Shown here piece after piece: positions 22,154 to 30,990 of a stretch of 30,990 bases of DNA (the first letter of the stretch is position 1; every line of letters begins with the position of its first letter). Made by a program: the position numbers and the translations under genes. The DNA comes from a virus, in the IMG/VR virus record IMGVR_UViG_3300030090_000661, positions 1 to 30,990 of that record; one strand, written 5' to 3'. The notes under the pieces are model-generated. The model saw nothing but the letters and a program-made list of their open reading frames with translations. It searched no databases and was not told the DNA's origin.

Positions 22154-22376
22154 CAGCTTCTTGCCTTTTTTTTCTTTCTTTATATGTTATCCAGTCTATA
22201 AAATTCCAAGCCTCATCATAGTCTGCATCCTCTGAGTAATACTCATATAAATCATGCATTACATACTCTCTTAGTCCATCTATATCTAAACTTTCGGCAA
22301 ACTTTTTTACGGCTTCTTCAAGTCCATCCTCAAAAGCTATATCTTCTTCATCATAGTCATTCTCTACTAGTGGCAT
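22146..22376 (-). CDS. Small acidic protein of unknown function
   Basis: 76 residues, ATG with AGGAG six bases upstream. Very acidic N-terminal half (D-Y-D-E-E-D, E-D-G-L-E-E) with helical patterns, then a Tyr/Trp-containing segment and a short Lys/Arg-rich tail. No known motif. The start overlaps the integrase stop by ten bases. Acidic mimicry of DNA is conceivable but not supported beyond charge. Confidence 0.72.
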   Translation of the reverse strand: MPLVENDYDEEDIAFEDGLEEAVKKFAESLDIDGLREYVMHDLYEYYSEDADYDEAWNFIDWITYKERKKRQEADD

Positions 22377-23254
22377 TTAACTCTCCTATCTAGTGCAGAT
22401 TTTGCTGTTTCCAAATTAAATTTATTGTACGGATTAAGACTGCTAACATTCTTGTGTCCTGTTACAGACTGAATAGCTAAGTGATCCACCTGCCCTTCAA
22501 TCATTTGTACTATACCAGTCTTACGTAGGTCACCCACCTGTAGATCATCAGGAAGCCCAGCAGTAGCCTTGACCTCTTTCAGTAAGGTGGTCATCTGTAA
22601 AACTGTTAGCGGTCTGTAAGCCCCATCAGAGGCCCTGTGGTGCGGTACTACGTATTGTTGAAACCCCCAATCCTTCTCTTGCTGCTCTAGCATAGGGTAA
22701 AGTTCATCTGTTATAGGCAACTCAACCGTAGCACCACGTTTAGTTTGTTTTATAGTTACTGATCTGTCCTCCCAATTGATATTGTTGAATGTTAGATTAC
22801 GTATGTCCACTGGTCTTTGGCTCCACTCATAGCACATAAGGACTATCAACCCAATGTTTCTCCACTTAAAGTCTGTGAATGCTGTATCCAGAAACGACAT
22901 AACCTGTTCATGTTTCCATATCACTGATCTAGGTTCACTGGTTCTTTTCTTTACTCTCTTCATAGGATTTCTTGGTATCACTTCCCTATCGACATAGTAA
23001 TTCATCAACACAGAGAATACCCTAGCTAAGTGATTAGCGTTTGCTGTACTGTTTTCAAACTCCCAAGTATCATACAACTCATTGCATATATCAAAGTCTA
23101 TCCTTTCTAGTATTTTCCTAGCCATAGGTATACCATATACTTTAGTATCATTAATACTAAGTAAGTTATATCTATAAGTTCTCTTAGTATTATAACTAAG
23201 AGAATTATAAGTCTTACTATCTAAATAATTAATGATAGACTTGTTGAACCTCAT
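22367..23254 (-). CDS. int: Tyrosine site-specific integrase
   Basis: 295 residues. N-terminal SAM-like core-binding domain (about 1-105) and C-terminal catalytic domain with Arg147 (S-Q-R-P), Lys172 (T-K-R-G), Arg244 (G-D-L-R-K-T), His267 (T-G-H-K-N) and nucleophile Tyr276 (N-P-Y-N-K-F). The first His of the usual H-x2-R box is Gly241, a substitution tolerated in many phage integrases. It integrates or excises phage DNA by recombination between attP and attB. It has its own strong promoter with an overlapping dyad and an HTH protein encoded just upstream. ATG with an AAAGG ribosome site. No tRNA fragment or obvious attP core was found beside it. Confidence 0.94.
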   Translation of the reverse strand: MRFNKSIINYLDSKTYNSLSYNTKRTYRYNLLSINDTKVYGIPMARKILERIDFDICNELYDTWEFENSTANANHLARVFSVLMNYYVDREVIPRNPMKRVKKRTSEPRSVIWKHEQVMSFLDTAFTDFKWRNIGLIVLMCYEWSQRPVDIRNLTFNNINWEDRSVTIKQTKRGATVELPITDELYPMLEQQEKDWGFQQYVVPHHRASDGAYRPLTVLQMTTLLKEVKATAGLPDDLQVGDLRKTGIVQMIEGQVDHLAIQSVTGHKNVSSLNPYNKFNLETAKSALDRRVKCH

Positions 23255-28790: not shown

Positions 28791-29042
28791 ATGTCTAAAC
28801 CAAAATTATATTCTTCAGACAAAGTTATAGAAGAATTTTATGAAGCTCTTGCAAGTGAAGACGAAGGAAGAGTGCGAAGAGTGCATATTCCTAGATCTGA
28901 TGTATTTTATGTTAGAGAAAAGATCTTCCAGGACACAGGAGTCAGATATTCTTTAGATCATGTAGAGCGTGCAATGTATTTAGAAGGTATGTTGGACGCT
29001 AAAGACGTTTTAGATCCTAAAAGAAAGAGAAAGTATGGCTAG
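28791..29042 (+). CDS. Conserved-type small phage protein, first rightward gene
   Basis: 83 residues. Helical, with a basic C-terminus (P-K-R-K-R-K-Y-G); the middle (D-V-F-Y-V-R-E-K-I-F-Q-D-T-G then S-L-D-H-V-E-R-A-M-Y-L-E-G-M-L) looks like a small DNA- or protein-binding helical domain. It resembles unnamed proteins I associate with marine phages; function unknown. It overlaps the holin-like gene by eight bases. No ribosome site lies before the ATG (see the promoter at 28757). Confidence 0.78.
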   Translation: MSKPKLYSSDKVIEEFYEALASEDEGRVRRVHIPRSDVFYVREKIFQDTGVRYSLDHVERAMYLEGMLDAKDVLDPKRKRKYG

Positions 29043-29250
29043 TACAATTATTGATGACTACAAAATCTTCCCAAGGTTGATGATGTTGGTAGTGACTATC
29101 CTAACTTACCAGTCTGTACACTGGTATATGTCTTTACCTGATCCCACCAACGGTCAAGCAGGGCTTGTTTCAGTCTGTATGGGAGCATTAACAGGTTGTT
29201 TTGGCATATGGATGAATAAAGAAGCTAAGACAGATAGAGGCACTAAGTAA
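29035..29250 (+). CDS. Holin-like protein, two TM helices
   Basis: 71 residues. Two hydrophobic helices (about 14-31 and 42-58) separated by a short loop with L-P-D-P-T, and a charged C-terminus, a class II holin layout. The segment Y-K-I-F-P-R-L-M-M-L-V-V followed by L-P-D-P-T and Q-A-G-L-V-S-V resembles putative holins annotated in marine phages. It forms pores that let the endolysin reach the wall. Located with the M15 endolysin and a second holin-like gene, which supports this. The stop and next start share one base. Confidence 0.75.
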   Translation: MASTIIDDYKIFPRLMMLVVTILTYQSVHWYMSLPDPTNGQAGLVSVCMGALTGCFGIWMNKEAKTDRGTK

Positions 29251-29459
29251 TGTATATAATTGTTTTATTAATGTTTGCAGGTGGAGGTCACAAGGTAGCT
29301 TCAGATCAAATATTGTACCCAAATCAAGAGATGTGTGAAGTTGCAGAAGCAGTATTACTGCAGAAACTAGAGGCTTCTAAGCCCACTCCAGACTCTTTTG
29401 TAATTACTAAGTGTGTAGAGATGTCTTTTGCTAAAGAATCAAAAGGAATATCACTATGA
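29250..29459 (+). CDS. Small exported-looking protein in the lysis cassette
   Basis: 69 residues. Hydrophobic N-terminus (Y-I-I-V-L-L-M-F-A-G-G-G) that may be a signal or anchor, then a polar domain with two cysteines (near residues 29 and 55). Between two holin-like genes, so a spanin or lysis accessory is possible, but no typical spanin coiled coil or lipobox is seen. Coupled to both neighbours by TAATG and ATGA overlaps. Its layout recalls the product encoded at 21073-21345. Confidence 0.7.
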   Translation: MYIIVLLMFAGGGHKVASDQILYPNQEMCEVAEAVLLQKLEASKPTPDSFVITKCVEMSFAKESKGISL

Positions 29460-29842
29460 TCCAAGCATTAATAGGACCGATAGCAGAACTGGCTGGTGGA
29501 TGGCTAAAGGGAAAAGCTAGTGCACAGGCTGCAGCATCCAATCTTAAACTTGTAGAGGCAGAAGCAAAAGCTACCATTATGAAGTCTGCTGCTACCTCAG
29601 AAGCCGACTGGGAAAAAGTTATGGCCCAGGGAAGTCAGTCCTCATGGAAAGATGAGTGGCTGACAATTTTATTTTCAATTCCATTAATTTTAGTATTTAC
29701 TGGAGACTGGGGCAGAGAGATAGTAGCAAATGGGTTTGTTGCTTTGGAAACAATGCCTGAGTGGTATCAGTACACACTGGGTGTAATTGTAGCTGCTAGC
29801 TTTGGTGTTAGATCAGCCACTAAGTTTTTTGGGAGAAAGTAA
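29456..29842 (+). CDS. Holin of the GTA/3-TM type
   Basis: 128 residues. The N-terminal half is an amphipathic helical segment with Ala, Lys and Glu; then S-W-K-D-E-W-L-T-I-L-F-S-I-P-L-I-L-V starts the first TM, followed by a central segment with N-G-F-V-A-L and P-E-W-Y-Q-Y, and a final helix with A-A-S-F-G-V-R. This matches the phage holin family known from gene transfer agents (GTA_holin_3TM). It would permeabilise the inner membrane in concert with the M15 peptidase; a second holin-like gene lies upstream. ATGA overlap at its start. Confidence 0.88.
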   Translation: MIQALIGPIAELAGGWLKGKASAQAAASNLKLVEAEAKATIMKSAATSEADWEKVMAQGSQSSWKDEWLTILFSIPLILVFTGDWGREIVANGFVALETMPEWYQYTLGVIVAASFGVRSATKFFGRK

Positions 29843-29968
29843 ATGGCAGCACGTAAAAAACCTGCAGCTAAAAAAGGTATGGCTATTGTAATATCTGTTG
29901 GTGCTGTTCCTATAAAAAAGAAAGCACCACCAAAAAAGAAAAAACCTGTGAGAAGGAAAAAGAAATAA
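29843..29968 (+). CDS. 41-residue Lys-rich protein
   Basis: ATG directly follows the holin stop (TAA then ATG) and its own TAA overlaps the next ATG by one base, so it is tightly coupled. Nearly half of the residues are Lys or Arg, with Ala and Pro, like a histone H1 tail, around one short hydrophobic stretch (A-I-V-I-S-V-G-A-V). It may bind DNA or the cell envelope; unknown. It fills the otherwise empty 125-base gap. Confidence 0.72.
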   Translation: MAARKKPAAKKGMAIVISVGAVPIKKKAPPKKKKPVRRKKK

Positions 29969-30420
29969 TGGCATTCAAGTTGAGTGAGAGAAGTCTTCGT
30001 AAGTTAGAGGGTGTAGAAAAAGACCTGGTTAATGTAGTTATGGAAGCCATCAAGTTAACTAAGGTGGACTTTGGTGTTACCTATGGACTACGCACACTAG
30101 AACAACAAAAAGAATTATTTAACTCTGGCAGATCACAAACTATGAAGAGTAAACACTTGGATGGTAGGGCCGTAGATGTTGTAGCGTATTTTGGTTCTGA
30201 TATTTCTTGGGAGTTAAATGTTTATGATGATATTTGTGATGCCTTTGCAGAAGCTGCTAGAAGAAATTCTGTTCCTATTAAATGGGGAGCAGCATGGAGT
30301 GAGGGAGATATTAGGATGTATCAAGGCACTGCAGAGGATGCCATGAATGCGTACATTGACCTTCGTAGGTCGCAGGGACGTAGACCATTTATTGATGCAC
30401 CACACTTTGAAATGATTTGA
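29968..30420 (+). CDS. Endolysin, M15 D-Ala/L-Ala-D-Glu peptidase
   Basis: 150 residues. Zinc peptidase of the M15 (VanY/L-alanyl-D-glutamate type) family cleaving peptidoglycan stem peptides. The zinc ligands are visible: His63 in S-K-H-L-D-G, Asp70 in A-V-D, and His146 in A-P-H-F-E; Asp143 is a candidate catalytic residue. The N-terminal helical part (S-E-R-S-L-R-K-L) and Y-G-L-R42 substrate Arg also match. No signal peptide, so it needs the holins encoded upstream. Together with the GH24 virion lysozyme, this phage has two separate wall-cutting activities. Confidence 0.92.
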   Translation: MAFKLSERSLRKLEGVEKDLVNVVMEAIKLTKVDFGVTYGLRTLEQQKELFNSGRSQTMKSKHLDGRAVDVVAYFGSDISWELNVYDDICDAFAEAARRNSVPIKWGAAWSEGDIRMYQGTAEDAMNAYIDLRRSQGRRPFIDAPHFEMI

Positions 30421-30479: not shown

Positions 30480-30507
30480 CTTGTTTTCCCCACAGATTAG
30501 GATTAGC

Positions 30508-30819
30508 ATGGCTGAGAAAAAGAACCGTATAGGCAAACGCAAAGGCACAGGGATGAAAGGGTTGACCATTAAGGGTGGTCATAAACGTCCTACAGAGTCT
30601 GGTGCTGGCATGACAGAGAAAGGTGTTAGGGCGTATAGACGTAAGAACCCTGGATCTAAATTAAAAACTGCAGTAACAGAAAAAAGCCCTTCTAAAGCTA
30701 GAGCTAAAAGACGTAAATCCTTTTGTGCTAGATCTGCAGGACAGATGAAAAAGTTTCCTAAAGCAGCTAAAGATCCTAACAGTAGATTACGTCAAGCAAG
30801 AAGAAGGTGGAGATGTTAA
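30508..30819 (+). CDS. DUF6321-like basic phage protein
   Basis: 103 residues from the ATG at 30508 (AGGA ribosome site); the longer frame begins with TTG. Very rich in Lys/Arg. The C-terminal half matches the DUF6321 pattern: G-x-R-A-Y-R-R-K-N-P-G-S-K-L-K, then V-T-E-K, then R-K-S-F-C-A-R, followed by D-P-N-S-R and a C-terminal R-R-W-R-C. Function unknown; proteins of this group occur in many phages and may bind nucleic acid. One base before the next start. Confidence 0.85.
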   Translation: MAEKKNRIGKRKGTGMKGLTIKGGHKRPTESGAGMTEKGVRAYRRKNPGSKLKTAVTEKSPSKARAKRRKSFCARSAGQMKKFPKAAKDPNSRLRQARRRWRC

Positions 30820-30990
30820 ATGCTATCACCACCAATACAAGCGTTAGGCGGTTTACTTGTTTTTTATGTAGGACTAAAGTTATTTAGTGGTGGCATGAAA
30901 AACATGGGTAATATAGAACACCTGCAATGGTTTCTAGGCAACCCTATCTATATGTTCATAGGTGGGATAGCAATGACCCTAGCTTGGCAG
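30820..30990 (+). CDS. Na+/phosphate cotransporter-like protein (3' cut by window)
   Basis: Only the first 57 residues are visible. The start directly follows the upstream stop. A hydrophobic helix with G-G-L-L-V-F-Y-V-G-L-K-L-F-S-G-G-M, a short polar linker, then N-P-I-Y-M-F-I-G-G-I-A-M-T-L-A-W-Q fits the repeat start of the Na/Pi cotransporter (NptA/PF02690) family, in which the next residues are usually S-S-S. The window ends right after Gln57. If complete, it would import phosphate, supporting nucleotide synthesis in infected cells. The fragment is too short for certainty. Confidence 0.6.
   Translation, partial: MLSPPIQALGGLLVFYVGLKLFSGGMKNMGNIEHLQWFLGNPIYMFIGGIAMTLAWQ

Follow-up and report, generated by a model that had tools for sequence, protein, structure and literature searches.

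A single-repeat, half-size relative of SLC34/NptA Na+/phosphate cotransporters encoded by phages

Introduction

Does a gene cut off by the end of a viral contig encode a phosphate transporter, and if so, a whole transporter or half of one? Inverted-repeat transporters are thought to descend from dual-topology half-size proteins via duplication and fusion, and cellular Na+/phosphate cotransporters of the NptA/SLC34 type hold two repeats of inverted topology in one chain, with a QSSS motif in each. The stretch of DNA analyzed here (the window) is the entire IMG/VR virus record IMGVR_UViG_3300030090_000661 of 30,990 bases, and the record itself offers no further sequence past position 30990. The frame at its end (Table 1) is open up to the last base, and its 57 residues end in W-Q, where PF02690 proteins go on with S-S-S.

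A PF02690 gene has been described in eight HMO-2011-type subgroup I phage genomes, with a proposed function in phosphate uptake during infection (PMC9038755, ISME J 2022). The likeness to the gene studied here lies in the Pfam family and the kind of marine phage, and one of our loci (L002) is itself HMO-2011-type. In the accessible part of that report the gene is treated as an ordinary Na/Pi cotransporter, and this part makes no mention of its length, of a single repeat, or of a spread into T4-like phages.

Table 1. Features at the 3' end of the window
Feature	Position	Strand	Remarks
Truncated gene for a half-size PF02690 Na+/Pi cotransporter-like membrane protein	30820..30990	+	First 57 codons of ~143; ends at the Q of QSSS
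GGTGGAG, Shine-Dalgarno-like	30806..30812	+	7 bases 5' of the ATG; read from the sequence
DUF6321 protein gene	30508..30819	+	PF19846, 3e-14; directly upstream, stop codon adjoins the ATG of the half-size gene
Endolysin-like gene	29968..30420	+	phrog_465; two genes upstream of the half-size gene; context only

A phage gene of the PF02690 family

When searched alone, the 57-residue fragment does not match any Pfam family and finds only phrog_3075 (E=0.014). Calling PF02690 from these residues, as the original prediction did, was a good guess below the level of detection. A scan of viral contigs identified relatives encoded in 154 of them, and in two loci (L001 and L002) the gene is nearly identical to that of the window, with one synonymous base difference in 171 and all 57 residues the same (window 30820-30990 against L001:4314-4484 and L002:4154-4324). 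Past residue 57 these copies read QSSSLSTTAIIALVASGALPLPAAIAAVLGANIGTTGT..., that is QSSSLSTTAIIALVASGALPLPAAIAAVLGANIGTTGTIWLAGFFVSDGMPKGDTLRIAIIHTGANLMMAIALLPFCSQIAKYVERF-stop, which includes Q-S-S-S and G-A-N-I-G-T-T and places the stop after residue 143. From these near-identical genes, the window copy would be expected to continue into QSSS as well.

The full 143-residue protein of L001 matches PF02690 (Na_Pi_cotrans; curated cut-off 29.1 bits) at 1.5e-16 and 61.1 bits. A sequence search with the viral protein retrieves the solved vertebrate SLC34A2a (9z60) with E=1.7e-17, and both repeats of SLC34A2a align to one and the same viral stretch (36 bits each; 44 and 37 bits with a profile). 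Models of the whole protein, NF037997 (NCBIfam Na/Pi symporter) and TIGR00704, score the viral protein at 41-44 and 46-51 bits, under their cut-offs of 50 and 210, and these matches are restricted to the N-terminal third. Judged by homology, the truncated gene is a phage-borne member of the PF02690 (Na/Pi cotransporter) family with a QSSS motif. Much of the original prediction is borne out: the 57 residues are the start of the NptA/PF02690 repeat, with VGLKLFSGGM and NP present; the final Q directly precedes the position of the expected Ser-Ser-Ser; and in L001 and L002 Q-S-S-S follows and the frame stays open for far more than a few codons.

One repeat instead of two

The viral proteins correspond to one of the two inverted repeats of a cellular Na+/Pi cotransporter, with a single QSSS. 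A frame with the motifs was recovered from 78 of the 80 loci in a first set; every one of the 78 had a single QSSS, and those that were complete measured 139-149 aa with few exceptions. A second set, retrieved with a different query, again showed one QSSS in 78/78 and a length of 143-144 from residue 1. No second homologous frame was present among all frames of the 160 loci, and PF02690 matched only once in each of 10 virus records (51-204 kb) and 2 MAGs. The original prediction named a second inverted repeat as a check, and this repeat is absent in every viral homologue examined. What stands is a PF02690 phage gene with QSSS; a complete two-repeat cotransporter it is not.

Cellular genomes show a different pattern. 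Among 296 Bacteroidota genomes used as a control, 117 match PF02690, and 115 of these do so two or more times; the single-match genomes are the MAG that is the source of L082 (168 aa) and a genome with a stop-interrupted frame of 252 aa, and the remaining frames among the matches listed are at least 322 aa. In a Chloroflexota class sample, PF02690 matches lie in frames of 389-562 aa, the contig of L081 excepted. When two conserved patterns were searched for in 84,980 species genomes, only the MAG contigs L081 and L082 matched; both are probably viral, and the L082 protein is 85% identical to viral contigs. On this contig, from a Flavobacteriales MAG, the half-size gene occurs with an ammonium-transporter-like gene and a BMP-family-like lipoprotein gene, a possible nutrient-uptake cluster.

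Pseudomonadota entered the cellular comparison through plasmid-borne examples only, and no half-size form was found on plasmids. Among the 50,697 INPHARED records no cultured phage carries the half, the only matches being two weak ones to Staphylococcus contigs. Full-length INPHARED matches were rejected as phage genes, as they look like host sequence in unverified records. Within the genomes and records searched, the half-size form looks virus-specific.

Selection and conserved residues

Half of a known gene in a record that ends inside it could be what decay or truncation has left of a host transporter, or an artefact at the contig end. The roughly 150 homologues share the same length and stop, and the complete genes lie inside long contigs with both flanks present. 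The viral gene has a median dN/dS of 0.08 (28 of 60 sampled pairs usable, with dS near saturation) and is thus under purifying selection, which together with the constant length rules out a pseudogene. A fragment or artefact is refuted for the family and is very improbable as an account of the locus.

Across 77 diverse sequences, Q57, S58, S59, S60, N88, T91, T92, T94, P76-L77-P78, W56, H118 and N122 are invariant, and position 89 of the GxNIGTT segment is I or L. The viral QSSS and GANIGTT align with QSSS and GSNIGTTTT of SLC34, and the two viral motifs can be aligned with either SLC34 repeat. In a model of human NaPi-IIa, the Na3 site is built from Q417, S418, S419, T451 and T454 and Na2 from the symmetric elements in repeat 1; phosphate is placed between the Na2 and Na3 elements (PMC6325988). 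By alignment, the viral counterparts of the Na3 residues are Q57, S58, S59, T91 and T94, and the invariance of both motifs suggests the same chemistry as in SLC34. The Na1 residues (human T200, Q206, D209 and S447) fall on viral W96, F101, D104 and A87 in an indirect mapping with inferred numbering, with only D104 kept.

Predicted topology and charge bias

An AlphaFold2 model based on 77 sequences (pLDDT 87, pTM 0.75) has helices at residues 4-28, 77-102 and 110-141, a short helix at 33-39, and a hairpin at 42-56/59-71 with QSSS at its tip. The model gives the viral half three predicted crossings and a re-entrant hairpin, the odd topology of one inverted repeat. Foldseek searches with models of pLDDT 80 and 87 returned no match at E<=0.001, and the SLC34A2a chains (9z60 and others) found by sequence are absent from the fold-search results. 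VIA-align of the viral model gave weak alignments, with YdaH at Z 4.7 (133 residues, rmsd 6.1) among unrelated rows. In the absence of a convincing PDB match for the model, the viral fold rests on sequence homology.

Among 98 distinct sequences, the short form carries a K+R bias of -1 in 61 cases and of -2 in 28 (89/98 together). Dual-topology proteins are listed with a bias of -2 to +1, a range that includes these values, and fixed pairs with plus or minus 6 to 7 (PMC3962082). EmrE, SugE, CrcB/Fluc, YdgC and YnfA are, like the viral half, small proteins from one gene with a bias near zero (PMC3962082); the comparison concerns how they work, and they are unrelated to the viral half as far as compared. 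In cellular proteins the two repeats (RU1 and RU2) are opposite in K+R sign in nearly all of 50 proteins, at roughly +4/-6 for SLC34-type proteins and roughly -3/+3 for PhoU-type proteins. As the N-terminal repeat of the PhoU type, presumably of fixed orientation, has a bias of -1 to -3 that overlaps the viral values, the charge argument is permissive and not decisive. The opposite signs of the SLC34-type and PhoU-type two-repeat proteins (L161-L213) look as if the two types had opposite overall orientations in the membrane.

How might one repeat function? We put the probability at about 0.5 that the viral protein forms an antiparallel, dual-topology homodimer that rebuilds an inverted-repeat Na+/Pi transporter. 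Because the SLC34 transport core needs two inverted repeats, the single repeat would have to insert both ways. Two copies, inserted in opposite directions, would associate antiparallel to recreate the two-repeat core; the binding site for Na+ and phosphate would lie between the hairpins and TM2 segments of both copies, and the dimer would import phosphate with Na+ during infection. Phosphate import by the viral half is plausible and would need such dimerization. In the lineage of the window, a single short form with a near-neutral charge bias would insert both ways.

A putative second start in other lineages

The window gene has neither a basic N-terminal extension nor an in-frame start further upstream and therefore allows only the short form, as its lineage has the short start only. 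T4-like and other, deep-branching marine relatives carry an in-frame basic N-terminal extension (MKVSKKAKLIKKVQKM, MKSKHKKLWKKVAKM, MKKKDRKLYDSWKYKSRNFM). Synonymous changes, together with conservation that begins exactly at the ATG, indicate that this extension is coding. It shifts the K+R bias to +3 to +6 in most cases, which gives the long form a strong bias towards N-in.

The ATG after the extension has a Shine-Dalgarno (SD) energy of -5.3 kcal/mol, against -5.2 for real gene starts, and the upstream ATG of the long form one of -2.9 kcal/mol, against -3.0 for random internal ATGs. In a separate clade the internal start reaches -5.7, compared to -1.3 kcal/mol for the upstream ATG. In 30 of 36 sequence clusters, which are not fully independent, the codon that forms the AAGGT of the SD has G as its last base, versus 42% elsewhere; three amino-acid changes occur at this codon (K to R, E or Q), and AGG is retained in each. 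The simplest reading is that the long-form gene would yield two products with different topological preference. The pattern is not universal, since some members have no internal ATG (L349, L353) and some no AAGG. A TATATA-TTG-like sequence that resembles a T4 late promoter precedes the long-form starts (e.g., L010, L032, L044), at no more than about 6-12 bases from the upstream ATG, and the long-form message may be nearly leaderless.

For the antiparallel dimer, these T4-like and deep-branching marine relatives would hold the long form N-in and leave the short form free to go N-out. The more specific proposal, of a virus-specific half-size Na+/Pi transporter that acts as an antiparallel dimer from one gene, is oriented in some lineages via two translation starts and represents a present-day, single-repeat version of an inverted-repeat elevator transporter, is one we hold tentatively. 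The N-in bias of the long-form lineages and the loss of most Na1-site residues argue against the dual-topology dimer. Both, like the lack of an internal start in some members, would fit a transporter or channel that forms a parallel oligomer or handles another substrate or ion, the half fold sufficing for some conductance. This is rather unlikely, given that SLC34 models place the substrate between two inverted repeats (PMC6325988) and that the invariant QSSS and GANIGTT point to shared chemistry.

Origin and spread

A tree of the repeats unites the viral proteins (100/100), with a long branch (2.1), and places them on the RU1 side of the split that isolates RU2 (93/76), between the RU1 repeats of the SLC34 and PhoU types. 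RU1 also scores higher than RU2 in 37 of 51 cellular proteins. Derivation of the viral half from the N-terminal repeat is favoured, with long-branch effects and the small number of columns leaving room for an older origin.

This affinity to RU1, which may mean an N-terminal half of fixed orientation, bears on a further alternative, namely that the half is not self-sufficient and pairs with, replaces half of, or inhibits a two-repeat Na/Pi transporter of the host. As a dominant-negative protein or regulator it might, for example, keep hosts with exporters of the YjbB type from releasing phosphate; the annotation of E. coli YjbB is that of a putative phosphate exporter, and each virus encodes one half only. 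We regard a host partner as unlikely, because the transport core retains all of its ion-binding motifs and the gene occurs in podoviruses as well as larger, T4-like phages (62-98% identity to the window type) with probably diverse hosts, which is hard to match with tuning to one partner.

The DNA polymerase of the window is closest to that of Roseobacter phage CRP-6 (54%); the terminase that identifies L002 as HMO-2011-type is 80-82% identical to those of CRP-603, CRP-2 and CRP-207. The 60 bases upstream of the half-size gene are unrelated between the window and L001/L002, and the gene moves between phages. A near-identical gene in two phage groups behind unrelated upstream sequence indicates a recent transfer, which is possibly why the assembly stops at 30990.

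Relation to known systems

Bacterial SLC34-type NptA (369-416 aa, L198-L210, no PhoU) agrees with the viral half in the order and spacing of QSSS and G-x-N-I-G-T-T, and its RU1 aligns along the greater part of the viral protein, with 42-53 bits in the majority; it differs from the one viral repeat in having two fused inverted repeats of clearly opposite charge bias. In bacterial NptA/YjbB with a C-terminal PhoU, both repeats match the viral profile, but these proteins are 545-723 aa long, with two repeats plus PhoU, and their charge bias suggests an orientation opposite to that of the SLC34 type. Both repeats of vertebrate SLC34A2 (9z60) also match the viral sequence; unlike the viral half, this protein of 646 aa has two repeats, a large extracellular loop and the Na1 site.

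A half-size or single-repeat SLC34/NptA member, the second-start pattern and the spread into T4-like phages were not found in the open-access papers searched, supplements excluded. Judging from the accessible part of the earlier report, the phage PF02690 gene and the proposal of phosphate uptake are already known (PMC9038755), and these three features appear to be new. The published phage Na/Pi cotransporter would then be read differently, as annotation by PF02690 alone would label halves as complete cotransporters. A half-size SLC34 relative that is conserved, abundant and intact in its core motifs would also allow a direct test of single-repeat transport and of insertion into the membrane in two directions.

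Genomic context

The endolysin-like gene two genes upstream raises the possibility that the half-size protein was recruited for lysis or membrane takeover, as a holin-like protein and not for transport. Dual-start arrangements are also known from holins, and some lineages of the half-size gene have a similar arrangement. We consider this improbable, as the transporter motifs are invariant, the small membrane proteins next to the endolysin (29035-29247 and 29456-29839) are better holin candidates, and in L084 the half-size gene sits among other genes upstream of the terminase. The two small membrane proteins belong to phrog_10198 and phrog_2524, and L004, another locus with a half-size gene, is 85% identical over the block that contains them (29032-29848).

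The DUF6321 gene likely starts at the ATG at 30508, inside the listed open reading frame 30481-30819. Its product is basic and present in at least 599 viral stretches; no half-size gene was found near the best 80 of its relatives within the DNA examined around each.

PhoH is encoded in the four larger records (88-204 kb) and absent from the window, and PstS was found neither in 13 records nor in the window; the window thus shows no phosphate programme. The same phage encodes ThyX and ribonucleotide reductase, as well as a phage integrase on the minus strand (22370-23254), and is possibly temperate.
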